Source of the DNA: Betaproteobacteria bacterium
GTDB taxonomy: Bacteria; Bdellovibrionota_B; Oligoflexia; Silvanigrellales; Silvanigrellaceae
Direction of reading: 5' to 3'
DNA: 64,000 bases
Assembly: GCA_016868315.1 (NCBI GenBank)
Contig: VGHE01000001.1
Location: forward strand, 434,001 to 498,000
Shown here: positions 6,763 through 34,374 of the stretch, piece after piece
Numbering within the stretch: position 1 is the first letter of the stretch
Layout: each line of letters starts with the position of its first letter
The notes under the pieces: model-generated
Told to the model about the DNA's origin: nothing
Seen by the model: only the letters and a program-made list of their open reading frames with translations
The model's database searches: none
Translations under genes and position numbers: made by a program

Positions 6763-8577
6763 ATGATGTTCGCCAATAGCGTGTTGTCGACAGCGGCTGC
6801 AGCGAGCCTGTTTACAACTTCACCCTCTTTTTTCTCCAACCAGGAAGAGCATGGCTCGCGGCTTCAGCCGATGGTTCACGCGGAATCGCCTGTTATCGCC
6901 GTTGCGCCTGGATTTTCTGTTTTGCGCACAGGAAGTTGGGCTTGGGATGGTGTGCCCATCTATGGAACCTCTTTCAAATCTGCTGCTGTCTCGGAGGGGC
7001 AAACTCCCACATGGTTTGCCGGTCATTTTCCAAACGTTGGGATGAATCTCGATGCATTGAGCCTTTCTTCTGGCTTCGAGCTCGACCCGGAACAAGCGCG
7101 TGAATTCTTCTCCCGGCGATTGTCGCTGGGAAGTTGGGAAACACCCCTACCGAAACCGGTTTATGTTGCGAACAACCACCAGCTCGAGAGTTGGTGGCGA
7201 CTTGCGCTCCCCCAAGGAAGAATTTTTTGGATGCGCGAGCACGATTCCTTTTGGGGACAAGAGCAATTTCAACCGCTACATCTTACTGGCAAGGCGGTTA
7301 TCTATCGCGAAAATAAGGTGGTTTCAGCAAGTGCTGGGCTTGAGGAAATTGAACTGACAGATCTGATTGATGTCTCCTATCTGCGTACAAAATTGTTTCG
7401 TGTGTTGAACTGTCTTGGTGCTGCGCAGAGTTATAAAAAATGCGGGAATTATGCCCGTTCAAACAGTGGTGTGTACCGGTACGGCTTCGATACCCCAGAG
7501 CATTCCGAGATGGTGGCTTACTATTCCATCAATCGAGCTATGAAATGGCATCAGAGAATTCAGAGTCCTGAGCAGAAAACCTACTTCGAAGAGTTTGGTC
7601 TGAAAGGTCCACTCGACGTTTTTGTGCGTGTTGCGGATTCTCAAAACGCATTCTACATCGACGTCCCTAATCCGCTCGATAGCCCCAATCCTTTTATCGT
7701 TATTGGAACCGGTGAAGAAACTGATGATGGGAGCAGATTACGCTATCTCAGCAAAGATGCTGATGTATATATTCATGAGTTTGCGCACCATGTTATGTTT
7801 CGATCAATTAAGGAAAAAAGCGTCACGAAACAGGGACGAATCATCCAAGAGGGGCTCGCTGATTATTTTACTTATACGATAACAGGAAACAATTTTCTCG
7901 CAGAGAGTGTTATCGATTTCGGTGGTTCGCTCCGTCAGGGCAATAAAGCAACCATCCTGGATGAGAGCCTTTTTCCTCCATCAAGTGCAGAAGCAATGTA
8001 TGAGGTGGGTGCAGTTCTGAGTTCAGTGATTTGGAGCATGCGTGAAAATTCTGCGGAGTGGCGAGATGGCTACCGCAGAATAGACAAAGTCCTGTGGGAT
8101 TCCATTGACCTCGTTCCCGCGAGCGCAACGCTCTATCAACTCGCCTGCGCGATGTACATTACCGCAGGCAATTTTGAACGCTCCGAAAATATTCCCTCCG
8201 GCACTGTGCGCACACCTATGACAGACATTTTTGTGCAACGGAATTTCTTCGCGAGCAACACTCCCGCAGCCGGCGAGAATTGTCCGCCTATTAGCGCAGT
8301 CCTTCAGACAGCCGACTCGCGAGAGGGAGAACCAAGCTCGCTTCCTCCGGTGGAAACGCCCCGGACGCCCGTTCCTTACACGGGTGAAAGTTTGCCAGCA
8401 TTACCGCCTGTTTCTGGCAGTATCTATGTTCCACTCCAACCGCGGCGTCCGCTCTGCGGTACCATCGCAGCTTGGAGTGGCAAACAGAATGCTGCTCCAT
8501 TGTTGCTGCTGACGCCGTTACTTTTCATCGGATCGAGGCTTCGTAAATTGCTCCGATGGCGGCATCGCTGCCGATAA
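6763..8577 (+). CDS. Exported zinc metalloprotease (HExxH) with C-terminal membrane/Arg tail
   Basis: A 604-residue protein. The zinc-binding motif HEFAHH begins at His 338, and a third ligand is likely Glu 363 in EGLADYF, the gluzincin arrangement of thermolysin-like peptidases. The N-terminus is hydrophobic and suits a signal peptide. After a Pro-rich stretch the C-terminus has a Cys-Gly-Thr, about 14 hydrophobic residues, then an Arg-rich end (RLRKLLRWRHRCR), the tripartite layout of bacterial C-terminal sorting signals. GGAGGGGGG at 6751-6759 places the start at ATG 6763 (or 6766). Its last 53 bases overlap the convergent gene. Confidence 0.8.
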   Translation: MMFANSVLSTAAAASLFTTSPSFFSNQEEHGSRLQPMVHAESPVIAVAPGFSVLRTGSWAWDGVPIYGTSFKSAAVSEGQTPTWFAGHFPNVGMNLDALSLSSGFELDPEQAREFFSRRLSLGSWETPLPKPVYVANNHQLESWWRLALPQGRIFWMREHDSFWGQEQFQPLHLTGKAVIYRENKVVSASAGLEEIELTDLIDVSYLRTKLFRVLNCLGAAQSYKKCGNYARSNSGVYRYGFDTPEHSEMVAYYSINRAMKWHQRIQSPEQKTYFEEFGLKGPLDVFVRVADSQNAFYIDVPNPLDSPNPFIVIGTGEETDDGSRLRYLSKDADVYIHEFAHHVMFRSIKEKSVTKQGRIIQEGLADYFTYTITGNNFLAESVIDFGGSLRQGNKATILDESLFPPSSAEAMYEVGAVLSSVIWSMRENSAEWRDGYRRIDKVLWDSIDLVPASATLYQLACAMYITAGNFERSENIPSGTVRTPMTDIFVQRNFFASNTPAAGENCPPISAVLQTADSREGEPSSLPPVETPRTPVPYTGESLPALPPVSGSIYVPLQPRRPLCGTIAAWSGKQNAAPLLLLTPLLFIGSRLRKLLRWRHRCR

Positions 8578-9679
8578 AAGTTCCGCGCTGCTGCAACCAA
8601 ATAAAGTCAGGACGAGCGTCTTGCAGCCAAACACCTCCGCGGATGCGACCTTGGGCATCAATCTCGAGTCGATATCTGTAGAGAACCGAACCTACAGCAG
8701 GCCGCTCAACAAGTTGACCCAAGGCGTTCCATTGTGGCTCGACTTCCATTCCATAATGCATCGCTGTCTCAACGATGATTTCTGATTGAGTTCCTGATGC
8801 TGCGCCGGGTGATGCTCCTTGGCGCGCGATTTCACGACTCTGGAATCTATAAATAGGTTGATTCCAAACCTCACCCATGCGAGCAATGTCTGCCACAAAT
8901 CCTTCCCTGAGAAGACCAATCTGGTTCGCCAGAACGACGTGAAACGCACCGGCATTGGAGTCGCGGCAGGGCGGTGTATTGAGTCCGAGAATTCCGAATG
9001 TATTACAACGCGCTCCCAGTCCGAGCGCTGCGCGCGTGTTTCGTGTTGCCATATGCCAAGTCAGTAAAGCTTTTACGTCTGAAGAGCCGAAGGGTACCTT
9101 TATTCCGCCAGGCCCCTTCAAGGTCACGGGCTTAGGCTCGAGATATTCGAGTGCCGCTGGAGCCCAGCCATGACACAGCCCCTCCCAAGCAGCTGCGCCA
9201 GGATAGGTGCGTCCGCGCTCGGATTTGACTGTTGGAAAATCAAAGCGACCCGCGTAAATATCTAACTTTTCCGCAGGCGAGAGAGCCGCGAGCTGAGTCT
9301 GTGACATGGAAGCTAGGGTTTGCCGAGAGTGGAGCGGATAGGCGAATGGACTCCCCACTGGATTCATCCATCGAAAAGCGATGCCAGCCCTCTGAGTGGC
9401 CCAATAGGAATCAGACCAAGGCATTCGATTCAAGCTTCCGGACTTTGGCAGCTCCTGAAATCGCAGCTCGTAGTTTCGCCCAAATCTCGAGGGCTCGTTT
9501 ATGACGTCCCAGGCCTCGAAGACTGTAGCTTTCTCTTCTGATTGCTCCACAGAACACGAAGTTGCAATCGAGAAGCTCGCGACGCTCAGCAAGAGCGTTT
9601 TCAGGGTTCTGATGCGACGACCACTTTTCAGCCCAAGTTCATGCCATCGATTCCTGACTGTTGCTGTAGGTAAGCTCAT
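8525..9679 (-). CDS. Transglutaminase-elicitor (GP42-like) family lipoprotein
   Basis: A 384-residue lipoprotein (lipobox IATSC, Cys 42). It matches the transglutaminase-elicitor family, known from Phytophthora GP42 and some bacteria: PWSDSYW (87-93), SPAEKLDIY (134-142), LCHGWAPAA with Cys 169 as probable catalytic Cys, AFHVVLAN with His 247, and VWNQPIYRFQSRE (271-283) at the place of the Pep-13 peptide. It would act outside the inner membrane, perhaps cross-linking or deamidating proteins. GGAGGAGG eight bases upstream fixes the start. A larger paralogue lies at 32281-34374. The family call is from memory of motifs; activity is inferred. Confidence 0.8.
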   Translation of the reverse strand: MSLPTATVRNRWHELGLKSGRRIRTLKTLLLSVASFSIATSCSVEQSEEKATVFEAWDVINEPSRFGRNYELRFQELPKSGSLNRMPWSDSYWATQRAGIAFRWMNPVGSPFAYPLHSRQTLASMSQTQLAALSPAEKLDIYAGRFDFPTVKSERGRTYPGAAAWEGLCHGWAPAALEYLEPKPVTLKGPGGIKVPFGSSDVKALLTWHMATRNTRAALGLGARCNTFGILGLNTPPCRDSNAGAFHVVLANQIGLLREGFVADIARMGEVWNQPIYRFQSREIARQGASPGAASGTQSEIIVETAMHYGMEVEPQWNALGQLVERPAVGSVLYRYRLEIDAQGRIRGGVWLQDARPDFIWLQQRGTFIGSDAAIGAIYEASIR

Positions 9680-9701
9680 GACCTGCGCCTCCTCCAGAGA
9701 A

Positions 9702-9730
9702 AGACGTGCGGGAGGAGTCCTCGCACGTCT
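9702..9730 (-). terminator. Hairpin between the GH57 gene and the transglutaminase-elicitor gene
   Basis: A perfect 9-bp stem, AGACGTGCG at 9702-9710 against CGCACGTCT at 9722-9730, with an 11-base loop, starts at the stop codon of the GH57 gene. On the minus strand only a short T-rich run (TTTCTCT) follows, so it may be a weak terminator or attenuator, or an mRNA-processing site. Confidence 0.45.
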
Positions 9731-11019
9731 CAGGAGAGAGTAACGACTCTGTCGTATTTTGCCGATGGAGCAATGTTGATGCTTGAATCAGATTCTGCGC
9801 CAAGGCTGGCTGGTGTGTTCAGCTGCAGTGCGCGTTGTACACGACAAACACGCTCAAAAGCTTCTACAGCACTGCGGTGATCCAAATAGGCATCGTAGGG
9901 TGAGTCGTATGGGCTAAAGTATTTGTGGACATCGCCGTCGTGTGAATACTTGATGCACATGTAATAGAAGTGGTCGCTGGTCTGGAGTTTGCGCCATTGT
10001 TCGGTTAGTTCCGGGTTGGCGATTGCACGCACCATGGGCTCGAGTGCCATCACGCGATCGAGCGCTTCTTCCTGAAGAGGATTGCTCAGCCATGCGGACA
10101 AGTCGCGTTCGGTATCCGCCCAGCTGGTGGGCACAGGAACGGCCATAGCGCTGCGCGAATCGCGCTGCAGAGCTTCCTCCACGCCAACAAAGTGCAGCTG
10201 CGGATGTGAAACCACTCTGTGAATGAGATCCTCGAAGAAATGGAAGATTCCGGAATCGGCCCACTGGTGTTCACCAAAGGTTTCGTAATCCATGAACAGT
10301 CCAATGAACTCATGTTGTCCATCGAGAAGTGATTCCAGCCAGTTTACATAGCGGTCTGCCGTGAGAGGCCAACTTGCCCAATTGCGATCAGAGAACCGGA
10401 AGGCCATGTCGTCGGAGAGCTTATAGCTCTTGGGCAGAAGCTTGAGCGAGCTCTGCGTTGGGTGGCGGAAAACGTGATGCGCATTCCAGCCCTGGGGCAG
10501 CCATGGATCCCAACCCTCGAGCAAACATCCCTCGAAGCCGAGTTGTGAAACCAGGCTGCCAATGGCGTCAGAGTATATCAACTCCGTGTTGCGGAAAACG
10601 CGGGGGGTTTTGTTGAATAAATTCTTCAGCGTGCAAAGCTGTTCTGCAACCTGACTGCGGAACTCATCTGCAGAGCGCAGAGCAGCCAAAGAGTGGTGTG
10701 AAGTTTCGCAGATGATGTGTGCGTTGGGGAGCTGCCCCAGAAAAGTATAGAGAGCGTAAAGGTGAGGATCGTATTCCTTGCATTGGCTTAAGAATGTTCC
10801 GCTGAAGGAGAACGAAACTCGAAAATCATTCGGGTACTTTAAAAGAAGATGCTCGAGCAGTTTTCCCATCGGCCAATAACATTTTTCGGCGACTTTATGG
10901 AAAACACTGCGGTTTTTCTCATCGCTGAAGAGCTGCTCTGCAGGAGTATTTTCGTCGAGTCTGACCTGACGCAAGCGGTACGGCTGATGCACTTGAAAAT
11001 AAAAACAAAGAGCAACCAT
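9730..11019 (-). CDS. Glycoside hydrolase family 57 (alpha-amylase-like)
   Basis: A 429-residue enzyme of the GH57 family, which hydrolyses or transfers alpha-1,4-glucans. Motifs: FQVHQPYRLR at the N-terminus (region 1), RNTELIYSD (Glu is the candidate nucleophile) and FMDYETFGEHQW (Asp is the candidate acid/base). There is no signal peptide, so it is probably cytoplasmic and acts on stored glycogen or imported oligosaccharides. ATG 11019 has GGAG eight bases upstream; in-frame codons farther up have none. It sits between a lipoprotein and a subtilase gene on the same strand. Exact specificity cannot be read. Confidence 0.88.
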   Translation of the reverse strand: MVALCFYFQVHQPYRLRQVRLDENTPAEQLFSDEKNRSVFHKVAEKCYWPMGKLLEHLLLKYPNDFRVSFSFSGTFLSQCKEYDPHLYALYTFLGQLPNAHIICETSHHSLAALRSADEFRSQVAEQLCTLKNLFNKTPRVFRNTELIYSDAIGSLVSQLGFEGCLLEGWDPWLPQGWNAHHVFRHPTQSSLKLLPKSYKLSDDMAFRFSDRNWASWPLTADRYVNWLESLLDGQHEFIGLFMDYETFGEHQWADSGIFHFFEDLIHRVVSHPQLHFVGVEEALQRDSRSAMAVPVPTSWADTERDLSAWLSNPLQEEALDRVMALEPMVRAIANPELTEQWRKLQTSDHFYYMCIKYSHDGDVHKYFSPYDSPYDAYLDHRSAVEAFERVCRVQRALQLNTPASLGAESDSSINIAPSAKYDRVVTLS

Positions 11020-11091
11020 TTGAACGACTCCGGAGCTTGGATTTGCTCGGGAGTGTACCTGCAAATTTGTCTGAGCAACATAATCGTGGCG

Positions 11092-12408
11092 TCATCTTGA
11101 TGTGGATGTCAGAAAGCGAGAGAGCTTGACAGCACAATGTTGGTCACTGTCGGATGCTGTGCAGGGCAGGGGAGCCTGCAGGAGCCTGCGAATATTGAGA
11201 ATTCCTGCGCCGTGCCGTTGAGTGTCCCACCCCTCAGGAATATCCATCGCAAATGTTTTTGCTACGGCGAGAAAAAGTCGACTGATGTTTTTTTGACCAT
11301 AGCGATGAGCGAGCCGCACTGGATTGTGCTGCTGAAGCCAAAGGGTTGCGGCTCCAGCTGTGAATGCAGTGGAGTAGCTCGTTCCACTGGACATGCGGAT
11401 GAGTCCGCTCAGGGAAAGCAGACTTCCACCCCGGGTTTTGAGGTCGTAGGATTGTGTGTTCGTAGGCTGAAGACTTCTTAATTTTCTTTCCTGTAATCCT
11501 AAGTGGCACACATTTTCACCCGGAGCCGCCCAGGCAATACTCTTGCTACTGAACGCGGGTTTCCAATGATTTTTCGCACGCGTCGAAGCCGTGACAGCCA
11601 CGACACCTGGCAGCTTGGCCGGCAGTGGAATGATGTCGACGGGCAGGGTTTGTCCTCCTGCTGCAATAACTATACTCCCCGCGTCGAGTGCTGACTCGAT
11701 AGCTTTGCGGATGCGTTGCTGGGCGTCGAAAATCGCACCTAGACTGATGGTGATGACGTGTGCGCCCAGTTGTGAGGCCTGAGCTATCCCGCCTAACAGA
11801 TTCACGAGATCAGCTGTGCCACCTGTTGAGATATTTCCCACCATGACCACACTGTCGGTGACCTTGATGGGAAAGAGGATCGAAAACGGCGCGACTCCCC
11901 GTAGCGACCAGCCACTGACATTTGTCTCTGCCATTGATCCGACAATAAGACTCGCTGTTTCAGTTCCATGACCAAAGTTGAGGCCTTTGTCGTTGTTGTC
12001 GAGGGGAGCAAGATGTGGCTGAACAAAGTTGAAAATTGCATCTCGCGTGGCTGGTTCGGAGATGTAATAGAGTCCGGCAAAGCCTTTGTCTGAATCGGCA
12101 TGGCGTTGCAGCATAGGAAATGGAATGACGCCCGTGTCAATGTGCGCAACTCTAATTCCTTTGCCGGGGTAGGAAATTCCGTTTTTGGAGAGGAACTGAT
12201 GCGCGGCATCCACTTCTAAATCACTCCAAGCCCATTCGCAGTCATTCCATTCGGGAATATGTGGTGGAGCGTTAATCTCTTGCGCAGTGTGCGGATTTGA
12301 GGGCTCTTCAGTGTTCGGGGCTAACTGGTCTGCGAACCCCACTCCGTTCATTGCGAATGTGAGAATTGCAATTTTCAGGGCAGCAGATGTGAACTGAAAC
12401 CGGTCCAT
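11092..12408 (-). CDS. Exported subtilisin-family (S8) serine protease, unusual oxyanion site
   Basis: A 438-residue protein with a signal peptide (residues about 1-26, ending in GFADQ). The S8 catalytic triad is visible: Asp 91 in HIDTG, His 147 in FGHGTE and Ser 344 in SGTSYSTA. The position where subtilases carry the oxyanion-hole Asn (AAGN) reads AAGGQ, so this Asn appears replaced by Gly. There is no obvious long propeptide or C-terminal repeat domain. GGAGG upstream of ATG 12408 supports the start. It would act in the periplasm or outside the cell. Activity may be reduced or altered. Confidence 0.85.
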   Translation of the reverse strand: MDRFQFTSAALKIAILTFAMNGVGFADQLAPNTEEPSNPHTAQEINAPPHIPEWNDCEWAWSDLEVDAAHQFLSKNGISYPGKGIRVAHIDTGVIPFPMLQRHADSDKGFAGLYYISEPATRDAIFNFVQPHLAPLDNNDKGLNFGHGTETASLIVGSMAETNVSGWSLRGVAPFSILFPIKVTDSVVMVGNISTGGTADLVNLLGGIAQASQLGAHVITISLGAIFDAQQRIRKAIESALDAGSIVIAAGGQTLPVDIIPLPAKLPGVVAVTASTRAKNHWKPAFSSKSIAWAAPGENVCHLGLQERKLRSLQPTNTQSYDLKTRGGSLLSLSGLIRMSSGTSYSTAFTAGAATLWLQQHNPVRLAHRYGQKNISRLFLAVAKTFAMDIPEGWDTQRHGAGILNIRRLLQAPLPCTASDSDQHCAVKLSRFLTSTSR

Positions 12409-12590
12409 TGTTGACCTCCGGCGTTGGTTCAGGCTTGCAGGCGAGGGAGGAGAACTTCAAGAAGGCGAGAAGTCTCCCCCTGATTTGGCAGGTTGGCGAG
12501 GCGGGACGTTGTTCATGAGGAATCAAAACATCTCATGGGATGTATTCCATTGTTTGAACACCGTGGTTTGGGACTGTTGTTAAGGTAACG

Positions 12591-12616
12591 AAAAAAAAGG
12601 CAGCATGAGAACTGCC
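12591..12616 (-). terminator. Rho-independent terminator of the response regulator-HPt pair
   Basis: On the minus strand the stem GGCAG/CTGCC (12612-12616 with 12599-12603), with an 8-base loop, is followed by eight T residues (A-run 12591-12598 on the plus strand). It lies 35 bases beyond the HPt stop codon. The rest of the gap from 12409 to 12590 shows nothing else recognisable. Confidence 0.75.
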
Positions 12617-12650
12617 GATTCACCTGAAATGGTAAGGATTAGTTTTGTAT

Positions 12651-13040
12651 TTAGGCGCAAATATAGGAGTTTAGTTCGAGCAAAGATGCAGTGAAGCTTG
12701 CGCTGATACGCTCGACCAATGCATTGTTTACTTCTGGCTGATTTGTTTGAGCTGATTTTTCGAGCTGCGCACAGAGTGCAGACATTTTCGCTGCTCCGAT
12801 GTTTGCGGCGGAGCCTTTAAGCCTGTGCGCAAGTCTGCTTGCAGAAGTGAGTTCTCCTTGCGCAAGAGCTGAGCGCAACTCCTCAAGAATAGAAGGCGTG
12901 GAGTCTGCAAAGAGCTTGACGAGCTCAACCACTAAGCTCTCTGTTCCGGGCGGAGAAAGTTCCTCCAGCCCGCGGAGTAATTCGATATCCAGGCAAGACA
13001 TGGATTGTATTTCTTGAGTTGTGCAATCAATCAAAATCAT
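12651..13040 (-). CDS. Histidine phosphotransfer (HPt) domain protein
   Basis: A 129-residue single-domain protein with the HPt signature AHRLKGSAANIGA, whose His receives phosphate in multi-step phosphorelays. Length and helical content fit a free-standing HPt four-helix bundle. It begins about 20 bases after the response regulator stop, so the two are surely co-transcribed. The start is uncertain: ATG 13040 has AAGGG about 15 bases upstream, TTG 13052 is poor, and a later ATG before SCLDIELL is possible. No hybrid kinase lies nearby; the partner kinase must be encoded elsewhere. Confidence 0.85.
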   Translation of the reverse strand: MILIDCTTQEIQSMSCLDIELLRGLEELSPPGTESLVVELVKLFADSTPSILEELRSALAQGELTSASRLAHRLKGSAANIGAAKMSALCAQLEKSAQTNQPEVNNALVERISASFTASLLELNSYICA

Positions 13041-13059
13041 AATTTTATTCAACGCCCTT

Positions 13060-13776
13060 TCACAGAGCGTTGAGCATTGGTGTCACGCTCGTCTGGACAT
13101 CCAGACTGAGGCCTGCACCATACACAGATTGAATTTTTACGTTGCTCGATACTCCTTCAAGAGCTCTCCTGAGTTCGAAAAGCTTTCGATAGAAGGCGTT
13201 ATCGCTCACGCGTACGGGTCCCCATGCTTCACGTTTGAGGGTTTCTTTAGGCACCACTGTTCCTTTTGCCTTGATGAGTTGGGCAAGAAGCAGCGTTTCA
13301 ACGGGTGCGAGAAATTGTCTTCCGACAGGACCAGTGACAACACGGTGTGCTGTATCGAGGCTCACATCACCGGCTTGGAGTGCGCTCTTTGCGGCCCTGT
13401 CTTGCAGATGAGCCAAGCGTGTTTGGAAGCGCGCCTGAACTTCGCGTGGTTTGATTGGTTTGAGAAGGAAGTCATCTGCGCCTTTGCGGAATGCGTCGAC
13501 CAAGAAGTCGTCGGCTGGGTCGGCGGTAATGACGATGATTGGGCAATATGGCCAGCGGGCGCGAAGTTGGGGAACGATGTCGAGTCCGGATTGGGCATTC
13601 GCAAGATGGATGTCGACAAAGACTGCGAGCGGCTCAATATTAGGAACGCGGGAAGTAAATTCGGTTAGAGTCGAAAATGCCAATGAGCGCAGAGAAATTG
13701 ATTTTTCAATGATCCGCGAGACCATCGGATCGTCATCGAGGGTGATCACATATTGGTTGCCGGCCAGTTGCTGCAT
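13060..13776 (-). CDS. OmpR-type response regulator
   Basis: A 238-residue regulator. The N-terminal receiver domain (about residues 5-125) has acidic DDD, a phosphoacceptor Asp in VFVDIHLAN and the Lys of LLKPIKP. The C-terminal domain (about 140-235) is a winged helix (KETLKREAWG...FYRKLFELRRAL...SVYGAGLSL). GGAGG just before ATG 13776 sets the start, removing a longer N-terminal open frame. It is followed at once by the HPt gene, which suggests control by a phosphorelay. Target genes are unknown. Confidence 0.88.
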   Translation of the reverse strand: MQQLAGNQYVITLDDDPMVSRIIEKSISLRSLAFSTLTEFTSRVPNIEPLAVFVDIHLANAQSGLDIVPQLRARWPYCPIIVITADPADDFLVDAFRKGADDFLLKPIKPREVQARFQTRLAHLQDRAAKSALQAGDVSLDTAHRVVTGPVGRQFLAPVETLLLAQLIKAKGTVVPKETLKREAWGPVRVSDNAFYRKLFELRRALEGVSSNVKIQSVYGAGLSLDVQTSVTPMLNAL

Positions 13777-13953
13777 TTTTCCTCCGAAATTTGCGTTCTG
13801 GAAAATATTGTTTCTTTCCTGGGAGGTTTTTCTAATGAATATTTCCCGAAACGCTACAAATTCGGCGGGACGCTTACCCAATTGTAAGACAAGGCGCAAT
13901 GGTAAGAAAAAGCCGAGCTATATTTGTTTCTTGCTCGACTTAGCGATGTATTT

Positions 13954-16941: not shown

Positions 16942-16962
16942 GAACAAAACAGGAGAAATGGT

Positions 16963-24497: not shown

Positions 24498-24527
24498 ATT
24501 TGACTGACAAATGCTGCCGAGCGTATA
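24498..24527 (+). promoter_or_regulatory. Strong sigma-70 promoter of the gldA-like operon
   Basis: TTGACT at 24498-24503 and a perfect TATAAT at 24522-24527 are separated by 18 bases. The expected transcript start, near 24534, leaves a leader of about 65 bases before the ATPase gene, with GGAGG in front of its ATG. It also argues against extending the divergent response regulator gene upstream through this region. Confidence 0.75.
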
Positions 24528-24598
24528 ATCCGCAACGCTTTGGAAAAACTCAACGTAACACAAAGCTCATTTGAAGTTCTCTAGGGTTAGGAGGAACA

Positions 24599-25558
24599 AT
24601 GATTGAGGTGAAAGACCTTATGAAGCTCTACGGAGAGCGAAAAGTTTTGCACGGTCTCAACTTTTCTGTTGGCGTGGGACGTGTGTGTGGTTTTTTGGGT
24701 CCGAACGGAGCTGGAAAATCTACGACGATGGATATCCTCGCTGGTTTGCTCGGGCCAAGCGACGGAACCGCGAAATTATGTGGGCTCGACGTGGTCACAC
24801 AGACCCGTGAGGTTAAGGAGATTGTCGGATACCTTCCGGATAATCCTCCGCTCTATAAAGAGATGACCGTTGTTGAGTTCGTTAAGTACGTCGCCAAGCT
24901 GCGTGGCGTTCCTGCCAATCAACGCAAATCTGCCGTCGATCGAGCGCTTGCAGATTGTGCTGTTACCGACGTTGCGAATCGTTTGGTGGGCAATTTGTCG
25001 AAGGGTTATCGTCAGCGCGTGGCACTGTGTGCAGCGCTTGTGCATCAACCCAAGATTCTGATTCTCGACGAGCCTACGGAAGGTCTTGACCCCAACCAAA
25101 TCCTTCTCATCCGCGGCCTGATCCGCAAGCTGGCCAAAGAACGCACGGTTATTCTGAGCTCGCATATTCTCTCTGAAGTTCAGGCGACCTGCGACGATGT
25201 TATCATCATCAACCAAGGACAAATTGTGGCTCAGGCATCCTTGGCTGATGCAGGTACCAGCAAGCCTTCAGTTATTTTCTCGTTTGCTGACCGCACGGAT
25301 GCTGCGCTGAGTTGGTTCAAAGAGAAAACTTTCGTATCCAAAGTCGAGCTTTTCAACGAGAAGCCCGATAGCGTTGTCGTGAACTTCAAAGATGATTTCT
25401 ACGGTGATGCTAAGAAAGCAAACATGGTTCAGGTCAACAGCCAGCTTGTACAGCAGGGCTTCGGCCTCACCAGTGTCTATGAGCACCGAACCGGTCTTGA
25501 GTCACTGTTCTTCGATGCCATCAAGAATCAAAGTCCAGCCGTCAGGGGGCAAGCATGA
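24599..25558 (+). CDS. ABC-2-type exporter ATP-binding protein, GldA-like
   Basis: A 319-residue ABC ATPase: Walker A GPNGAGKST, signature-like LSKGYRQRVALCAAL, Walker B ILILDEPTEGLDP and the H-loop His in LSSHILSEV. The ATPase domain fills residues 1 to about 225; the last 95 residues resemble the regulatory tail of GldA/NatA-like proteins. It is the first gene of a five-gene operon with permease, GldG-like and DUF4340 proteins. In Bacteroidetes the GldA-GldF-GldG system supports gliding; in other phyla the cargo is unknown. AGGAGG precedes the ATG. Confidence 0.88.
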   Translation: MIEVKDLMKLYGERKVLHGLNFSVGVGRVCGFLGPNGAGKSTTMDILAGLLGPSDGTAKLCGLDVVTQTREVKEIVGYLPDNPPLYKEMTVVEFVKYVAKLRGVPANQRKSAVDRALADCAVTDVANRLVGNLSKGYRQRVALCAALVHQPKILILDEPTEGLDPNQILLIRGLIRKLAKERTVILSSHILSEVQATCDDVIIINQGQIVAQASLADAGTSKPSVIFSFADRTDAALSWFKEKTFVSKVELFNEKPDSVVVNFKDDFYGDAKKANMVQVNSQLVQQGFGLTSVYEHRTGLESLFFDAIKNQSPAVRGQA

Positions 25559-26283
25559 GTGCTGCATTGACCATTGCACAACGAGATTTTCGTGGATTCC
25601 TTGGCACTCCGGTGGGCTGGATTGCCGCATGTATTCTTTTCCTTGTTTCGGGTTTGCTTTTCACTATCGTTACCGGGCAGCTGTTGCTCAAGGGTGAGTC
25701 GGTAGATCCCGTAGCTGAAATCATGGGTAGCCTAATTGGCTTTCTGAACTACATTAATATTTTCGTAGTGCCGATTTTCACAATGCGCGTCATGAGCGAA
25801 GAGCTTGCACAAGGTACTTTCCGTTTGCAGGCTGGCGCTCCCATCAGCTCCGGAGAAATCGTTGCCGGAAAATTCCTTGGCATTATGTTCTATTTTTCCA
25901 TCATTGGCCTGCTGTTGCTTATTTATCCAGTTTACGTTTCTGTGTTTGCAGAGCCAGACTACAAGGTCATGTCATTAGGATTTCTGGGTCTGATTCTCAA
26001 CATTGCAGCAATTGTGTCGATTGGTCTTTTTGTTGCTTCGCTCACCCAGAATGCGGTTATTAGCTATCTAGGCTCCGTCTTTTTCGTCATCCTGTTCCTG
26101 TTCAGTGCTTATATTAAAGGTATGCCTGAGTGGTATCAGCGTTCGGTCAATATTCTTGAACTGGGCAATGAATTGTCACGCGGAATTCTCAAAACATCAT
26201 CGGTGGCCATCTACCTTGCGATTGTGGCTACTTTCCTGTTCTTGAGCCGTTTGGTCGTTGAAACCAAGCGTTGGAGAGTTTGA
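25555..26283 (+). CDS. ABC-2-type permease, GldF-like
   Basis: A 242-residue inner-membrane protein with six hydrophobic segments. MRVMSEELAQGTFRLQAGAPISSGEIVAGKF is partly typical of ABC-2 permeases (the EE..GT..L..P.s..eiv.GK pattern near residues 80-105). It overlaps the ATPase gene by four bases (ATGA), so translation is coupled. With the GldA-like ATPase it would form the membrane channel of the exporter. Confidence 0.87.
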   Translation: MSAALTIAQRDFRGFLGTPVGWIAACILFLVSGLLFTIVTGQLLLKGESVDPVAEIMGSLIGFLNYINIFVVPIFTMRVMSEELAQGTFRLQAGAPISSGEIVAGKFLGIMFYFSIIGLLLLIYPVYVSVFAEPDYKVMSLGFLGLILNIAAIVSIGLFVASLTQNAVISYLGSVFFVILFLFSAYIKGMPEWYQRSVNILELGNELSRGILKTSSVAIYLAIVATFLFLSRLVVETKRWRV

Positions 26284-26284
26284 A

Positions 26285-28030
26285 ATGAAAAAATATCGTC
26301 TTGAACTTTCAATTGGACTCATTCTCGCATCGCTTCTCGTGCTGCTCCTGTGGAGCAATCTGGCTGCAGTTGCCCCGCAATTGCCGATTGGCTTGCTAGC
26401 AGCTTGTCTTGTTGGTCTAATCTCTGTCATTGCGCCATGGCCAGAGCGCGATTCTGAAGGCCGCGTTGTCTCCTCTCCCACCGAGCGTTATGCGCCCAAG
26501 GAGTTTGCACTGGCGGCTGTTTGGAGTGTCCTGGGCATTGTTATCATCATTGGTGTGGCAACTCTTCTAAACCGCGACCGGTTCAGCAAGACCTTTGACC
26601 TCACCCAGCGTAAAGTGAATTCGCTGAGCACAGAGACGTTGAATGTTCTGAAGGAATTAAAGACCGATGTTCAGATCGTCTGTATTCCTTCTCAAAATCA
26701 GCAAGAACGCTACTGCGACGAAAGCACTCAGTTGCGGCGCCTTTTCGCAGAGAATTCTCCGAAGATTCAGCATTTCGCGCTCAGCCTGGATGATCCCGAG
26801 GCTTTCCAACAGGTGCGTCCGGGCGGCTACAGCCGGCTTGTTCTTTTGACCAAAGACAAAGCCCGCAATGAGGTTGTTGGTGCGGTAACTGAGAGCAAAC
26901 TCACCAACGCGCTTTTGAACCTAACCAAATCCAAGCGCGCAGTTTATTTCCTCACGGGCAATGGCGAACATGAAACATCTATGGAGGGCGGCCGGAACTT
27001 CTTCAACGTGGCTGAGATTCTTCGCAATCGCAATTACGAAGTGATTCCTCACAAGATCACCGAAGAGCTTCCTGCTCAGGCTCAACTTGTCATTGCTGGG
27101 CCGGCTCAAGGGCCATACACGCAGCTTGTCGAGAACAGTCTGCGTCGCTTTCTGGCGCGCGGGGGGCGATTGATTTTCGTCGTCAACCCCTATCGTGAGC
27201 CAGGGATGCCAAAGCTGTTTGCAGATCTCGGTGTTAGGCTTGATTCCTCGGTTCTCATCAACAACCGTGGTGCAACTCAATTTGGTGCGCAGCTGGCGCA
27301 ACTTGATCCGATGCGCCCACCAATCATTATCGGTGAATTTTCCCGGAACTCGCCGGTCACGAGCCCCTTCCGCACAACTGATGTCGGCCTTGCAGACGGA
27401 GCTCGTGCAATGAGCTTCGCTGCTCCTGCGTCAACTGATGCAAATGCATTGAAGGTCAAGGGCACAGAGCTCATGTCGGCAATCCACTCTGCACCCGTCA
27501 CTCTCACCGAAGACCAACGCAACCGTCTTCCTTTGGAGGGTGACTTGGCGCTGAAGCCAAACGCTGGTTTCGACCCCAACAAAACCTATACAGTGGCTCT
27601 CGATCTTGAAATCGAGAATCCCGCGAAGTTGGCAGAGGGCTTACCAAGCGCAACCTTGGCGTCGAAGGATTCGGTAGCAAACGTCGGACTCGAGAGCGGC
27701 ACAACGCCTGATAGCGCTGACAAGTCCAAGTCAGATGCAGCAACTCCCGCCGCGTCTGCAGATAAAGCGCCCGCAGGTGTTGTGGTTCTCGGTTTCGATC
27801 CGGTTGCTTTTGAACGCATTCAGCTGGTCACGACCAACATCATGCCAATTGCGGTAGCTCACCTTTATAAAGATCGCGACCTCATCAGCATACCTAATAA
27901 AGATTTCGCTCCGAAGCGTTTCAAGCTTGAACGCAATCCAGGAAACTTTGTGCTGTTGTTTGCGTTCATTCTGCCTCTCCTGACTGCTCTGGCTGGCCTG
28001 TATATCTACGTTCGTCGGAGGTCTGCATGA
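26285..28030 (+). CDS. GldG-family ABC transport accessory protein
   Basis: A 581-residue protein. There are two hydrophobic segments near the N-terminus (about residues 8-50 and 82-102), then a large periplasmic part with the GldG hallmark FDLTQRKVNSLSTETLNVLKEL, a GNGEHE motif and an Ala/Ser/Asp-rich insert near residues 460-510, and a final membrane span followed by RRRSA. GldG-type proteins form a complex with the ABC-2 permease. GGAGAG seven bases before ATG 26285 sets the start. The next gene overlaps by four bases. Confidence 0.87.
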   Translation: MKKYRLELSIGLILASLLVLLLWSNLAAVAPQLPIGLLAACLVGLISVIAPWPERDSEGRVVSSPTERYAPKEFALAAVWSVLGIVIIIGVATLLNRDRFSKTFDLTQRKVNSLSTETLNVLKELKTDVQIVCIPSQNQQERYCDESTQLRRLFAENSPKIQHFALSLDDPEAFQQVRPGGYSRLVLLTKDKARNEVVGAVTESKLTNALLNLTKSKRAVYFLTGNGEHETSMEGGRNFFNVAEILRNRNYEVIPHKITEELPAQAQLVIAGPAQGPYTQLVENSLRRFLARGGRLIFVVNPYREPGMPKLFADLGVRLDSSVLINNRGATQFGAQLAQLDPMRPPIIIGEFSRNSPVTSPFRTTDVGLADGARAMSFAAPASTDANALKVKGTELMSAIHSAPVTLTEDQRNRLPLEGDLALKPNAGFDPNKTYTVALDLEIENPAKLAEGLPSATLASKDSVANVGLESGTTPDSADKSKSDAATPAASADKAPAGVVVLGFDPVAFERIQLVTTNIMPIAVAHLYKDRDLISIPNKDFAPKRFKLERNPGNFVLLFAFILPLLTALAGLYIYVRRRSA

Positions 28031-29511
28031 AGCCGTGGCTCAAGATCACTCTGGCAGTGGTCGCAGGCGCTGCCATTTGGGGAGGGCTGGTGCTCGACCA
28101 GCACCTTGCTGAGAAGGAAGAAGTGAGCAAAAAGCAGGAAGCCAAAGTGCTTGATTTTGAGAGCAAAGATGTTCTTAAAATCACGCTTCAGAACAAACAC
28201 GGTCAGTTTGTTTTTCAGCGTGACACCGCGACATCGGATTGGAGGTTGGTGCAGCCACAAGGCCCGAAACTGGATCAGGATTCCATTCGGAACATGCTTG
28301 CCGCAATTCAATCTCAGAACTACGAGCAGCATCTTGAAGAACAGCAGAAGGCAATTGATTCTTTCAAGAAAGGTGATGCAGCTTCAGCTCAGGTTTTCGG
28401 CTTCGAGAAGCCGCGCGCGTCCGTGGTTCTCGATGTCGCAGCAAATAAAGAGGCGGGCACAAAAGCACGTGAGCTGAAGTTCTGGTTGGGCGGTGATCTC
28501 GCGTTCGGAGCGGGAGCGGGCGCGGCTTTCAATGCAGTCTCGAGCTATGCAGTGAGTTCCGATCGCAAAGGCCTCATTGTAGTCCCGCACTCGCTGCTCA
28601 CTTCGTTGGAAAAAGATCTGAAAGATCTGCGCACGAAAACCATCGGTGATTTCCTCACAGCCGACGTTGCTTCTTTTGAACTTACCAAAAGCGATGGCAC
28701 GCAACTTGTTCTCTCAAAGTCGAAGGACAACGGTCAGAGCATCTGGTCTGTCAGCAAGCCAAAGCAAATTAAGGCTGACAACAATCAGGTGGGTCTCTAC
28801 CTTGATTCGTTCACTCGGCTCCGTGCGGACAACATCACCGAGTCTGCGGCAATCAACGAGCAAAACAAAACTGCCCTCGGCTTGGCAGCACCGAGTGCTA
28901 CGCTTGTTCTCAAGGCCGAAGATGGAAAGGTTCTCCAGACGATTCAGATGGGGCTCACGAAGGAGTCGCTTTACCTGACGCTGGCCGATGGAGCTGTCGG
29001 AAGTGTCGAATTGACAAAATTTTCCGACCTTGCGCCCTCTTTGAAATTCTTTCGCGATCGTCGGGTGTTTGCGGGTGTAAGCTTCAACGATATCAATCTG
29101 TTGGTTACGAAAGCTGGTCAGCGATACCAGAAGGAAGGATCGGCTTGGTATAATGCTTCTGCGGATGCACCCAAAGATCCTAAAAAACCAGAGAAAGTTG
29201 CCGTCGATGACGCCAGAAACTTTGTCGAAGATTGGGAGTTCTCAACTGCGGAAGATATCCTAGATGCCGACGAAACAACTGAATTGGCGAAGTTTGGACT
29301 GGATAAGCCCCTGACTCAATTTACTTTGGGTTCGACGGACGACAAAAAGCCACAAATTCAGGTGACGGTTGGCAATCGAGTTCCCAATAACGAAAAAGCG
29401 GTCTATTTAAAGCGAGCCGATAAACCCGAAGTTTTCGTGATGGAAACGAAATGGCTTGACGTGCTCACCCGTCTTGATCAAGGAGGGCAGAGTCCACAAG
29501 CCAAGAAGTGA
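28027..29511 (+). CDS. DUF4340 domain protein
   Basis: A 494-residue protein with one N-terminal membrane segment (about residues 6-26), then a periplasmic region with repeated units of the DUF4340 type (KVLDFESKDVLKITL, DWRLVQP, FGFEKPRA, then again TADVASFELTKSD). This family nearly always lies next to GldG-like genes, as here. It overlaps the previous gene by four bases (ATGA) after a CGGAGG ribosome site. It probably binds the exporter's cargo or its periplasmic module; the function is unproven. Confidence 0.85.
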   Translation: MKPWLKITLAVVAGAAIWGGLVLDQHLAEKEEVSKKQEAKVLDFESKDVLKITLQNKHGQFVFQRDTATSDWRLVQPQGPKLDQDSIRNMLAAIQSQNYEQHLEEQQKAIDSFKKGDAASAQVFGFEKPRASVVLDVAANKEAGTKARELKFWLGGDLAFGAGAGAAFNAVSSYAVSSDRKGLIVVPHSLLTSLEKDLKDLRTKTIGDFLTADVASFELTKSDGTQLVLSKSKDNGQSIWSVSKPKQIKADNNQVGLYLDSFTRLRADNITESAAINEQNKTALGLAAPSATLVLKAEDGKVLQTIQMGLTKESLYLTLADGAVGSVELTKFSDLAPSLKFFRDRRVFAGVSFNDINLLVTKAGQRYQKEGSAWYNASADAPKDPKKPEKVAVDDARNFVEDWEFSTAEDILDADETTELAKFGLDKPLTQFTLGSTDDKKPQIQVTVGNRVPNNEKAVYLKRADKPEVFVMETKWLDVLTRLDQGGQSPQAKK

Positions 29512-29524
29512 GGACTCTTCGCCT

Positions 29525-30190
29525 ATGTCAGCCAAGACTGAACTTATACTGGTGCCCGTTTCGACCCACACTGGTGAATTGCGCATTCTCGTGAAGCGTG
29601 ATTCCTCAACCGAGAAGCAGACCCTCCCAGGAACTCTTCTCAGAGCCGATTTCCTGCAAAAATCTGGCCTCGAGTACGCACTGCGCGAAATTCTTTCGCA
29701 GTGCGATGCCGAGGAGCTTTCCTCCTGGATCGCATCGTCCAAGTGCAAAGATCGCGTCGTGGATGTGTACGACCGCGATCTCTTGTTTGAAGGCGCACAG
29801 AGCGTTGCAATCGTCCGCGTTGTAGCTATCCCGAGCGAGCTCGCTCCCGATGCGCGTGGGCTCTGGTTGACCCCTGCAGAGCTGTTTGCCGAAACGAGTC
29901 ACTTGTCGCACGACTGTCGCTTGTTCATCCGAGATGCATTGGCCTCGGTTCCCTATTGGATCCGTCATTCTTCGCTGGCATTCGAGCTTCTTCCTAAGGT
30001 GTTTTCCATCCAGGATCTGCGCCTTCTGGTTGGGCTTCTCTCGGGGCAGGATATTGACCCTGGGAATTTCCATCGTCGCCTGAAGAGGCTCGATTTACTC
30101 AATCCGCTCGTCGCGGGGCAGCGAGTGCACAGGTGGGAGTTCGCCTGGGGCAAGGGTGAAGTTTTGAAGGGCGAAGGGCTTATTCCTTAA
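29525..30190 (+). CDS. NrtR-like protein: degenerate Nudix domain plus winged helix
   Basis: A 221-residue protein. Residues about 1-140 look like a Nudix fold with the remnant ALREILSQCDAEELS, where the catalytic EE pair of the Nudix box is lost. Residues about 150-215 (LAFELLPKVFSIQDLRLLVGLL...FHRRLKRLDLL) match the winged helix of NrtR-type regulators. NrtR family members bind ADP-ribose or related metabolites and repress genes of NAD or sugar metabolism. It lies 13 bases after DUF4340 at the end of the exporter operon, so it may sense a nucleotide and regulate this operon. Confidence 0.75.
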   Translation: MSAKTELILVPVSTHTGELRILVKRDSSTEKQTLPGTLLRADFLQKSGLEYALREILSQCDAEELSSWIASSKCKDRVVDVYDRDLLFEGAQSVAIVRVVAIPSELAPDARGLWLTPAELFAETSHLSHDCRLFIRDALASVPYWIRHSSLAFELLPKVFSIQDLRLLVGLLSGQDIDPGNFHRRLKRLDLLNPLVAGQRVHRWEFAWGKGEVLKGEGLIP

Positions 30191-30203
30191 GCCCTTTTTT
30201 TTT
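30174..30203 (+). terminator. Rho-independent terminator of the gldA-like operon
   Basis: A 9-bp perfect stem, AAGGGCTTA (30174-30182) against TAAGCCCTT (30188-30196), with a five-base loop, is followed by a run of T residues to 30203. The stem contains the stop codon of the NrtR-like gene. Confidence 0.9.
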
Positions 30204-30214
30204 GGCACGTGCGC

Positions 30215-30243
30215 TTGACCTTCATTCCGCGAAAATCTATACC
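30215..30243 (+). promoter_or_regulatory. Promoter of tRNA-Asn
   Basis: TTGACC (30215-30220) and TATACC (30238-30243) with an ideal 17-base spacer, ten bases before the mature tRNA 5' end. Confidence 0.65.
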
Positions 30244-30252
30244 CACGGGCGT

Positions 30253-30328
30253 TCCCCAGTAGCTCAGTCGGTAGAGCAGCGGACTGTTAATCCGCGTGTC
30301 GTCGGTTCAAATCCGGCCTGGGGAGCCA
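30253..30328 (+). tRNA. tRNA-Asn (anticodon GTT)
   Basis: 76 bases fold as a cloverleaf. The acceptor stem TCCCCAG pairs with CTGGGGA. The D-arm is AGCTCAGTCGGTAGAGCA, the anticodon arm CGGACTGTTAATCCG has GTT, and the T-arm contains GGTTCAAATCC. The discriminator is G and CCA is encoded (30326-30328). It has its own promoter and lies between convergent protein genes. No integrase or duplicated tRNA end is seen beside it. Confidence 0.95.
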
Positions 30329-30356
30329 TCTCTTTCAAGCTTGCCTTGCACTGCTC

Positions 30357-32135
30357 TCAAGCCACATCTAGTTCGTAATCTTGCCGTTCTTCGCTCTTGG
30401 CTTGGCCAAAGGGATACACGAATATTTTGAGCAATTCTGACTCGTCGAGTTCAGTCAAATCCAGATTGCGGCAGCCGATGTTGCAGATTGTGAGCTGGCT
30501 CTCTTTGTTCAGATTGACCCAGCGCGGGCGCGTTTGGCTATCGCTGCCTAGGCCGAGCGGATCTGCATGGGGCGTTAAATAAATCGATTTACTGACCGAG
30601 TATTTGAGTTCTGGAGGCGGATAGCCTGCGTTAATGAAGGCCATGATTTTCGCTTCGGGTTCGATAATTGCCATGAACATTGAGGTGTGGACTGTTCCCA
30701 ACAGAACGCCCTCTGCGGACAATGAGGCCATGTTGAACAGCTTCTGAATCAGCAACTCACTCTCTTCTGTGAAGCCTCCCGTGCCCAGGGCTTTGTTGAG
30801 AACAAACTTGATTGTGTATGCACTTGTGGCGGCTGCTAGACCCTCACCGCTCGCATCACCCACAGCAAGAAAGATTCTTCCTTGGTCGAGGTTTCGAAGA
30901 ATCCACCATGAACCGCGATACTGCGTCGAAGAATTTGTTTCGACTTTGACCACTGCGTCGCCTGCAAGTTGCATTTCGCCCGAAGCTCCAAAATCATCGA
31001 GTAGGTGTTGGCAGAAATCGCGCTCGAGTGACCGCACGTTCTTGCCCTGAGTACGAGTTATCTCGCGCGCCTCTTTGCTTCCCACTGCTGCTGTTTCGAG
31101 ACCTAGAATATCGGGAGCCTCAGATTTAAGACTCAGACGCCAGAATTGCTGTCTGTAGCTCCACAGCAGCAAAACAAAGCTGGCGGCAAGCCAAAGGAGT
31201 GCGAAAATCCAGTCACTGAGGAAAGATGGGCGGTCGATTGCGACGTTCGCAGGAATTTTCCCGGCAGGAACAATTTGAATGAGGAATGTGTTTGTATCCT
31301 TTGACTTCTGCCATGCAATCCAAATGCTTTTGCGCGTCATGGCAAACTTGTGTTCCTGTGCACCGCTCTCACTTGTGCGCGAATTCATGAATGCTTGAAG
31401 CTCACTTGTCTCGATTTTGTATTCAGCGAATCCTTTAGAGTAAAGAAACTTCTGGTTCTCTTTGCTGTACAGTGCAATCTCGCCAGGACGCTGCTCGGCT
31501 TGCAAACTCGGCAGCAGTTCCTCGGAGAGGGTATGAACGATCCAAATCGACCAAGGGTTGTTCGATGCTCTGGCTTTATGCGCAACCTGAAGCCACTGGG
31601 CGTTTGGACGCAGACTTCGGATAAAGCTTGCATTTGATGTCTGCTCTGCGGTGATGCCCGAGATGAGCTGCAAGGCACTGGCCTGAGTTTCATTGCTCCA
31701 GGGGATGGGCGAATCCTTGTCGCTCGCGAAAAGCTTGATAGCCTTCGGTGACATCAGGGTTGCCGAAACACTCGGCTCAAATCCCTGTCGTCGTGTGACA
31801 ATGTGGGTTGCGAGCCATTCCGGTTGGTGTTCGAATAATGCTGACCAAGTTCCAACATGGCTTTTCAATTCGCCTGGGGACATGGAGTTGGTGAAGGCAG
31901 AAAGTCGTCGTGAGATGTTCGTCCAATAGGCTGTGCGTCGCTCAAATTCTTTCACTGCGTTGGTCGTGAGACTCGAGAAAGCGTTCAGCTGATTGCGTTC
32001 GTCGGCTTCGCTCCAATCTGAGCGATTCATCATGACGAAGAAGGCAATCCAGACGCTCAATACGAGCCAGAACCGACCTTCGCGGTCGATAGCAGCCTTA
32101 TTCAGCTTGTAATATGCCTTGAGCCGTTCTTTCAC
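30357..32135 (-). CDS. Membrane-bound SpoIIE-type (PP2C) phosphatase
   Basis: A 592-residue protein. There is a membrane span near residues 22-38, a periplasmic sensor-like region of about 270 residues, a second span near 310-330, then a cytoplasmic SpoIIE/RsbU-like domain with GDASGEGLAAATSAYT (metal-binding Asp), SMFMAIIE and FINAGYPPPEL. Such proteins dephosphorylate anti-sigma-factor antagonists in partner-switching systems. No antagonist or anti-sigma kinase gene is next to it. The start is GTG 32135 with AAGGAG six bases upstream. It is divergent from the lipoprotein gene at 32281. Confidence 0.87.
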   Translation of the reverse strand: MKERLKAYYKLNKAAIDREGRFWLVLSVWIAFFVMMNRSDWSEADERNQLNAFSSLTTNAVKEFERRTAYWTNISRRLSAFTNSMSPGELKSHVGTWSALFEHQPEWLATHIVTRRQGFEPSVSATLMSPKAIKLFASDKDSPIPWSNETQASALQLISGITAEQTSNASFIRSLRPNAQWLQVAHKARASNNPWSIWIVHTLSEELLPSLQAEQRPGEIALYSKENQKFLYSKGFAEYKIETSELQAFMNSRTSESGAQEHKFAMTRKSIWIAWQKSKDTNTFLIQIVPAGKIPANVAIDRPSFLSDWIFALLWLAASFVLLLWSYRQQFWRLSLKSEAPDILGLETAAVGSKEAREITRTQGKNVRSLERDFCQHLLDDFGASGEMQLAGDAVVKVETNSSTQYRGSWWILRNLDQGRIFLAVGDASGEGLAAATSAYTIKFVLNKALGTGGFTEESELLIQKLFNMASLSAEGVLLGTVHTSMFMAIIEPEAKIMAFINAGYPPPELKYSVSKSIYLTPHADPLGLGSDSQTRPRWVNLNKESQLTICNIGCRNLDLTELDESELLKIFVYPFGQAKSEERQDYELDVA

Positions 32136-32280
32136 AGTCCACTCCTTCGACCGTGCGCATCGGCGCTCCTGGGAAAGTATTTACAGGACTGTCATGGTTT
32201 TGACGTTCTAGTTTTCTTGGCAACCAGATCCTCCGACATACAAAACGCGCTTTTACTTCACACGAGGAAGGATTCTTTAA

Positions 32281-34374
32281 ATGCAAGCTCCACAAAAAAA
32301 TCAGCGAAGACAATTGGGCATTCTCTCGGGTCTGTTGGCCGTGGTGGCCTTCTCAGGATGTAAGCCACGCTCCTACAATTCGGGCGTTTACGAAGCCCCA
32401 GGAAATGCAGATCGCCCGGAGCGCTTGGGTTTGCCCGCAACAATGCCCTGGAGCGAATTGAAGGATCTCAAGGCGGCAGAACGCAGCGTTCCTTGGACAG
32501 ATACCTATTGGCCTTTGTTTCAAAAAGGTATGGCTGTGCGCTGGGCTGTTCCTGAAGGAGGAGCCACAGCTTTGCCAAAGAACCCTGAAACTCCTTGGCG
32601 GCAAGTGTCGCAGATGCTTGAAGCTTGGAATCAGGGCGACAAGGCTCGTTTGAATTTGCTCTCGCCAGCCGAAAAATATGAGCTCATCAAGCTTGGCGAT
32701 GCAAGCGTGAATGCTTCCCTCTTGGCAGAGCTCGAGGCGAACGAAAAACAATTTCTCAGTGCACCCGGCCTCAAGGAGTCACGCGATCGTCTTGAGGCCA
32801 TCGCCAAACAACAGCAGCAGATGAAGCTGCAAATTGACCAGTTGTCGCGGGAAATAAATGCTCTGGTTTCGAAGGTGCGCGACGACAATGCAAGCGGCCT
32901 AAAACTCAAAGGCTTCCTGAAAGATCCAGCTTTGCGAAATAGGGTTAACCGCGAGGAAGTGCTTCAGCAGATTTCGGTTCTTCAAAATGCGGTGGTGAAT
33001 AATATTGCTGGCATCAAAGCAAAACAAACCGCTTTGGACAACCTCGAAACACAAGCAAAAGACTTCAACAAGAAAAAATCTGAGGCCAAGGAAGTCTACG
33101 ACAAGGAACTCAAGACCTGGCAAAAATCTGGCCTTGCCGTTGCGGGAAAGATGTCCGACTCACTCAATATGATCTCTACGAGCTGGGAGAATTATCTCAA
33201 CTACAGCAGTTCCTACGATGAGCCATGGGAGTGGATGGGACATTGTCATGGTTGGGCGGTTGCGGCTCTCAATGAGGCAACCCCTAAACATGGTGTGCTT
33301 GTGCAGCGTGCTGGAAAGGAAATCTTCTTCACTGAGGGAGATATTCGCGGCCTGCTGACAAAAGTTTACTCTGACCAATCACCTCCAGCAAAATTCGCCA
33401 GTTTGCGCTGTGATAGCGACAAGCTTGTCAAAGACCGATTGGGTCGCGTAGCAGATGGTAAACTGTGTCTTGGTGAGAACAAAAAGTCATGCACGCAAAC
33501 AGACAAGGGAGAGATTGTCTACATTGCAACTGGGCAAAGCCAGCGAGGGTTATCCGTCATTGGAAGCAAGGTGAATGACGATAATCCGCGTGTTGCTGTG
33601 TGGACAGGCGGCGGAACTGAAGACTCGGTTCAGGTTGCTATTTATCCGGATCTCGATACGTTCTCAAAAAATCTTTCCAAAATCCGTGCTCGTGATTACT
33701 CAGGTAGTCAGCGTGGTATCTTGAACATTTCACTCTCTTGCCGCGACACAAATCCGATGACCTTACACATGGCACTGAAGGGATTCATTGCAGACAAGAA
33801 AATCGGTTTCGTGATGGACCGCACTCGAACCGCGCAGGTTTGGAATCAACCGGTGCACAAGTTCGAAATTGCGACGCTTCCTATCAAAAAGAATGACAAA
33901 GATGGAACTCTGAGTGTTCCCGGGGAACCCGTGGCAGTCGCAGAAGTTGATGATCTATTCCGCGATTTCCGCGCAAAGGGCACTGCATTTCTGGTTCAAA
34001 TGAAAGTTAAGTTGCACTATGGTGTCGAGAATGGTCCTCGCTTAACCTATCGTGCTCCAGATGAAGCAACCGATGTCGATACGGTTGTCTACACGCTCGA
34101 GCTCGATGCCAAACAGAATCTCATTGGTGGTGAATGGGGGCTCATTCCGACAACTGAAAATGCGAAGGACTCTTCATTAGCTGCGGGGCGGAGTGGTGCA
34201 GGACCTGACTTTCTTTGGTTGATTGATCAGAAGGAAAAACCAATCAAAGGCAAGCTCGATCATGCCTTGATCGATAAGATCCATCGTTGTTCTCTGGAGG
34301 CCAACAACATTCAGAAATATCCTTGGTCGGTCGGCGGGGTTACGCTCGATTACACCATCTGCAAGGTCGACTGA
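32281..34374 (+). CDS. Transglutaminase-elicitor family lipoprotein with coiled-coil insert
   Basis: A 697-residue lipoprotein (lipobox AFSGC, Cys 27; mature start CKPRSYN). It shares the family motifs of the shorter paralogue at 8525: PWTDTYW (71-77), SPAEKYEL (from 128), HCHGWAVAA with probable catalytic Cys 322, LHMALK with His 496 and VWNQPVHKFEIAT (520-532), the counterpart of the oomycete Pep-13 peptide. Between the second and third motif it has an insert of about 150 residues, largely coiled coil (about 150-290). Several Cys pairs suit the periplasm. GAGGAAGG upstream supports the ATG. The enzyme role is inferred. Confidence 0.8.
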   Translation: MQAPQKNQRRQLGILSGLLAVVAFSGCKPRSYNSGVYEAPGNADRPERLGLPATMPWSELKDLKAAERSVPWTDTYWPLFQKGMAVRWAVPEGGATALPKNPETPWRQVSQMLEAWNQGDKARLNLLSPAEKYELIKLGDASVNASLLAELEANEKQFLSAPGLKESRDRLEAIAKQQQQMKLQIDQLSREINALVSKVRDDNASGLKLKGFLKDPALRNRVNREEVLQQISVLQNAVVNNIAGIKAKQTALDNLETQAKDFNKKKSEAKEVYDKELKTWQKSGLAVAGKMSDSLNMISTSWENYLNYSSSYDEPWEWMGHCHGWAVAALNEATPKHGVLVQRAGKEIFFTEGDIRGLLTKVYSDQSPPAKFASLRCDSDKLVKDRLGRVADGKLCLGENKKSCTQTDKGEIVYIATGQSQRGLSVIGSKVNDDNPRVAVWTGGGTEDSVQVAIYPDLDTFSKNLSKIRARDYSGSQRGILNISLSCRDTNPMTLHMALKGFIADKKIGFVMDRTRTAQVWNQPVHKFEIATLPIKKNDKDGTLSVPGEPVAVAEVDDLFRDFRAKGTAFLVQMKVKLHYGVENGPRLTYRAPDEATDVDTVVYTLELDAKQNLIGGEWGLIPTTENAKDSSLAAGRSGAGPDFLWLIDQKEKPIKGKLDHALIDKIHRCSLEANNIQKYPWSVGGVTLDYTICKVD

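Follow-up and report, generated by a model that had tools for sequence, protein, structure and literature searches.

Two GP42-type (TGase_elicitor) lipoproteins in a Silvanigrellaceae genome and the occurrence of their family in Bdellovibrionota

The window, i.e., the whole stretch of 64,000 nucleotides that was analyzed, encodes two lipoproteins of the TGase_elicitor family, to which GP42 of Phytophthora sojae belongs. The short form (P0002) and the long form (P0001) are probably membrane-anchored cysteine acyltransferases (table 1). The pair is real and was correctly named in the original prediction; as a gene annotation, it is an already known Pfam family. The main value of the results lies in the distribution of the family and in a Vibrio gene nested among those of Bdellovibrionota; together they open the origin of GP42 to renewed testing. 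With the family so widespread in Bdellovibrionota, and often present in many copies, the source of this plant-sensed enzyme has to be considered anew.

Table 1. Features of the two TGase_elicitor genes, in window coordinates
Feature	Position	Strand	Evidence
P0002, short-form TGase_elicitor lipoprotein, 384 aa	8525..9679	minus	Pfam PF16683; PDB 3tw5 match; model Z
Cys169 codon of P0002, presumed catalytic nucleophile, start of helix 169-178	9173..9175	minus	Opposite Ser in 3tw5; invariant in 44-sequence alignment; model helix
His247 codon of P0002, presumed catalytic base	8939..8941	minus	Invariant in 44-sequence alignment; opposite GP42 His
Asp264 codon of P0002, presumed third triad member	8888..8890	minus	Invariant in 44-sequence alignment; opposite GP42 Asp
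Pep-13 counterpart VWNQPIYRFQSRE, P0002 residues 271-283	8831..8869	minus	Sequence; alignment
P0001, long-form TGase_elicitor lipoprotein, 697 aa	32281..34374	plus	Pfam PF16683; model Z; genus orthologues
Helical hairpin insert, P0001 residues 145-308, between SPAEK and CHGWA	32713..33204	plus	Model helices; motif gap
Cys322 codon of P0001, presumed catalytic nucleophile	33244..33246	plus	Invariant in 19 long forms
Second insert, P0001 residues 377-487, predominantly of beta strands, with an invariant Cys at either end	33409..33741	plus	Long-form alignment; model
His496 codon of P0001, presumed catalytic base	33766..33768	plus	Invariant in 19 long forms
Asp513 codon of P0001, presumed third triad member	33817..33819	plus	Invariant in 19 long forms
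Pep-13 counterpart VWNQPVHKFEIAT, P0001 residues 520-532	33838..33876	plus	Sequence; alignment

Family Assignment and Predicted Fold

Both open reading frames were found with the motifs in the order that had been claimed, and the agreement is far beyond chance as judged by the E-values of Pfam and phmmer. The series consists of PWSDSYW, SPAEK, CHGWA (with Cys169), His247 and VWNQPIYRFQSRE in P0002, and of PWTDTYW, SPAEK, CHGWA (with Cys322), His496 and VWNQPVHKFEIAT in P0001. The minus strand of P0002 had not been given previously, and the interval that had been named (8525-34374) concerns the pair only at its two ends, with many unrelated genes between them. In the HMM search with the Pfam TGase_elicitor model (PF16683), whose curated cut-off is 25 bits, P0002 scored 103.9 bits (E 1e-29) and P0001 93.2 bits (E 1.9e-26), so that the predicted family membership holds for both; NCBIfam had no model for either protein.

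P0001 and P0002 are two of five TGase_elicitor paralogues in the genome. The alignment of all five shares the presumed lipobox Cys, the Cys of C[HN]GW, the His, the Asp and VWN.P. The N-termini are of the lipoprotein type in both proteins, as had been proposed, with a hydrophobic stretch closed by a lipobox-like Cys (C42 in P0002 and C27 in P0001), which is aligned across the five paralogues and across 19/19 long forms. A simple lipobox pattern was met in 58 of 143 relatives, a family-wide count that is uninformative because start codons were assigned mechanically. Orthologues of P0001 within the genus show 75% and 65% identity, and the closest relative of P0002 among the matches listed (75%) is from a genome named "uncultured Silvanigrella sp."

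GP42 (3tw5) was the sole match among all PDB chains in phmmer searches, at 2.4e-23 for P0002 and 1.9e-10 for P0001, and a profile built from 44 relatives reached it at E 1e-52. The AlphaFold models, both of them confident (pLDDT 87.3 and pTM 0.82 for P0002; 82.1 and 0.74 for P0001), were superposed on 3tw5, the comparison that had been suggested, and this resulted in Z 30.1 with an rmsd of 2.2 Å over 282 residues for P0002 and Z 26.6 with 2.8 Å over 297 residues for P0001, far above other chains. Identity to GP42 over the superposed residues is 28-29%. Foldseek returned one significant match for the P0002 model, again 3tw5 (5.3e-22). Neither of the two outcomes that had been named as refutations (no hit to the family model, or a predicted fold with the Cys and His far apart) was seen, the latter as far as the superposition on GP42 tells.

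The likeness to GP42 thus comprises the domain fold, the motif order, the positions of Cys, His and Asp, and VWNQP after the Asp. GP42 is an oomycete cell-wall glycoprotein whose solved residues start at 163, with a long N-terminal part before them, whereas in the bacterial proteins the domain begins soon after the lipobox Cys. The latter also differ in an extra Cys pair, C225 and C238 in P0002 and C377 and C487 in P0001, which was recovered by a simple pattern in 134/143 relatives and, judging from the sequences, may form a disulphide. P0001 has two large inserts that GP42 lacks. Because of the extra Cys pair and these inserts, the specificity of the bacterial enzymes may differ from that of GP42.

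The first insert separates SPAEK from the Cys motif by 185 residues in P0001 versus 26 in P0002, and its model forms a hairpin of helices 145-159, 162-214, 224-291 and 296-308. The hairpin also gave structural matches to toxins and coiled coils of other kinds, which are meaningless, as is usual for long helices. A further invariant Cys pair of the long forms (C670 and C694) is located near the C terminus. The long forms compose a supported clade: the careful tree gives 100/100 to its three long-form rows, and another tree gives 98 SH-aLRT to eight.

Presumed Active Site and the Pep-13 Segment

The conserved Cys and His of both proteins were borne out, and an Asp as well. The order C169-H247-D264 in P0002 and C322-H496-D513 in P0001 is that of GP42, and the three residues are invariant across an alignment of 44 short forms and relatives and one of 19 long forms. 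A C..H..D order precedes VWN in 141 of 143 relatives. According to the alignment, the crystallized GP42 chain (3tw5) has a Ser at the position of C169, a His at H247 and an Asp at D264; the Ser is presumably the Cys-to-Ser mutation used for crystallization.

On the most probable reading, both proteins are cysteine acyltransferases; we infer their activity, cross-linking as against hydrolysis, location, substrate and the roles of the inserts as follows. Once the protein is exported and lipidated (at C42 or C27), its domain would face the periplasm or the cell surface. C169 or C322, positioned where the central helix begins and aided by the His and the Asp, would attack a glutamine side chain of a protein and form a thioester, and a lysine or another amine would accept the acyl group, so that proteins of the envelope or outside the cell would become cross-linked through an isopeptide bond. 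The VWN.P segment, a predicted strand after the presumed catalytic Asp, would support the active site, and the long hairpin of P0001 probably serves to position the enzyme or to bind a partner. GP42 itself has been described as a Ca2+-dependent transglutaminase (PMC4221288), the type that had been suggested for the two bacterial proteins, which may share this dependence. The occurrence of the family in Bdellovibrionota offers a test bed for the role of the enzyme in bacterial envelopes; we know of no bacterial member of the family that has been assayed.

Proteins with the GP42 fold could instead be envelope cysteine proteases, amidases or deamidases rather than cross-linkers, since both reactions make use of the Cys-His-Asp set and a papain-like fold suits proteases and deamidases too. 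Papain-like cysteine proteases and streptococcal Mac-1 are the next fold neighbors of P0002 after GP42, and they share the Cys that opens the central helix. However, they show no sequence match and the resemblance is distant, with a weak structural score (Z 5.0-5.6) far under the 30.1 of GP42, which is also the sole PDB protein matched by sequence. Proteolysis or deamidation is accordingly considered unlikely, and cross-linking is retained as the probable reaction.

The Pep-13 segment starts seven residues past the presumed catalytic Asp. Each of the two bacterial segments is identical to Pep-13 at 7/13 residues, including W2 and P5, which we take to be the essential ones; neither protein has the full 13-residue sequence. 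Among 123 bacterial relatives the core shows W in 123, N in 123, P in 120, V in 116 and Q in 96, whereas positions 7-13 are variable and are not kept in P0001 or P0002. Three long-form relatives (L133, L134 and L135) have VWNQG, with Gly for the Pro of Pep-13, and VWNKA or VWNQA occurs in 3/20 further sequences; therefore, even the Pro can be lost. A review places Pep-13 within the region needed for the transglutaminase activity of GP42 (PMC6770897).

The simplest reading indicated by these sequences is a constraint on the whole family, with the VWN.P core presumably kept for the enzyme, and therefore finding it in a bacterium reveals little about plants. The proposal that plants might recognize the two 13-residue segments gains little from the comparison, the core being family-wide and positions 7-13 varying freely among the bacterial relatives. 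That the VWNQP segments are plant immune epitopes, or were selected in relation to them, is very improbable in spite of the 7/13 matches: the nearest relatives among the matches listed are from uncultured Silvanigrellales genomes, and nothing in the analysis links these bacteria to plants. The retention of the Pep-13 core is apparently due to reasons unrelated to plants.

Distribution and Phylogeny of the Family

Occurrence was surveyed in two phylum samples of Bdellovibrionota and in 14 well-known control genomes. Of the 58 genomes from the window's phylum, 52 carry the family, as do 94 of the 192 in the second sample, which was taken from the phylum to which a Bacteriovoracaceae genome belongs; several copies per genome are frequent, and the 14 controls all lack it. 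A scan of the collection gave at least 503 confirmed relatives; among the best 80 of them, the labels Oligoflexia, Silvanigrellales and Bacteriovoracaceae prevail, and a few metagenome-assembled genomes (MAGs) are labelled Proteobacteria or Epsilonproteobacteria. One MAG with the latter label (G061) came from the phylum sample that also contained Bacteriovoracaceae. A TGase_elicitor domain fused to ankyrin repeats occurs in a MAG that is labelled Epsilonproteobacteria (L056:5959-8013). Phage records gave no TGase_elicitor match. Searching the literature for the family name together with Bdellovibrio gave no hits, and transglutaminase does not come up in the main text of a comparative genomics paper on Bdellovibrionota. 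A review that cites the structure paper restricts the homologues of GP42 to oomycetes and some marine Vibrio (PMC4915311).

A protein of this kind (WP_233902700) is encoded by a plasmid of Vibrio owensii (NZ_CP025798). It matches PF16683 at E 1.8e-41 and shares the domain, the motifs and a Pep-13 counterpart, VWNQPVIGYDVVF, with P0001 and P0002, but, unlike them, it also carries a ricin-type lectin domain at its C terminus. In the trees, it groups with another Bdellovibrionota subfamily and not with P0001 or P0002. In detail, the careful tree places it within a clade of 15 rows (98/95), all others of which are from the two sampled Bdellovibrionota phyla, and there its neighbor is a row from the family of the window itself (94/86); a larger quick tree showed the same placement with a support of 95. 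This nested position suggests that Vibrio received the gene from Bdellovibrionota, subject to the placement of the root, which was not inferred, and to the single Vibrio sequence on which the placement rests.

GP42 itself has a very long branch and its place shifts between trees. A single clade of GP42 and Vibrio was not rejected by the AU test (p 0.087). The same review states that the oomycetes took the GP42 gene from Vibrio (PMC4915311); with the unstable place of GP42 and this p value, such a route is neither supported nor refuted here. It is conceivable, with somewhat less than even chances, that the GP42 family is an old and expanded group of envelope enzymes of Bdellovibrionota, from which Vibrio and perhaps an oomycete ancestor obtained it, and that the long forms represent a cross-linker of their own, whose arm is the helical hairpin. 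If this is true, the published origin of GP42 in oomycetes from Vibrio would need revision.

Gene Neighborhoods

Synteny of P0001 and P0002 is kept within the genus and nearly gone beyond it. Across the phylum no shared partner was found among the neighboring genes, and their comparison showed no functional link with either protein; clusters beside short forms reappear solely within subsets of related loci, with the exception of common ABC-type ATPases. P0002 closes a co-oriented run on the minus strand (8525-13899) composed of a response regulator, a small ORF, a subtilisin-like protease, GH57 and P0002, with the order kept in a same-genus genome. To regard the subtilisin-like protease as a processing partner is only a guess. 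The P0001 gene is divergent from a gene for a SpoIIE-type phosphatase (30357-32135, minus), and the two are neighbors in 3/3 same-genus genomes.

The 3′ ends of P0002 and of a convergent ORF of 609 aa, with a weak match to DUF2268, overlap by 53 bases (8525-8577), and an overlap is also present in another locus (L038). Between the two genes of the pair, an ABC transporter set (24599-29511, plus) consisting of an ATPase, an ABC-2 membrane protein, ABC_transp_aux and DUF4340 resembles ABC operons of the gliding type, and its order is kept in another genome (G048).
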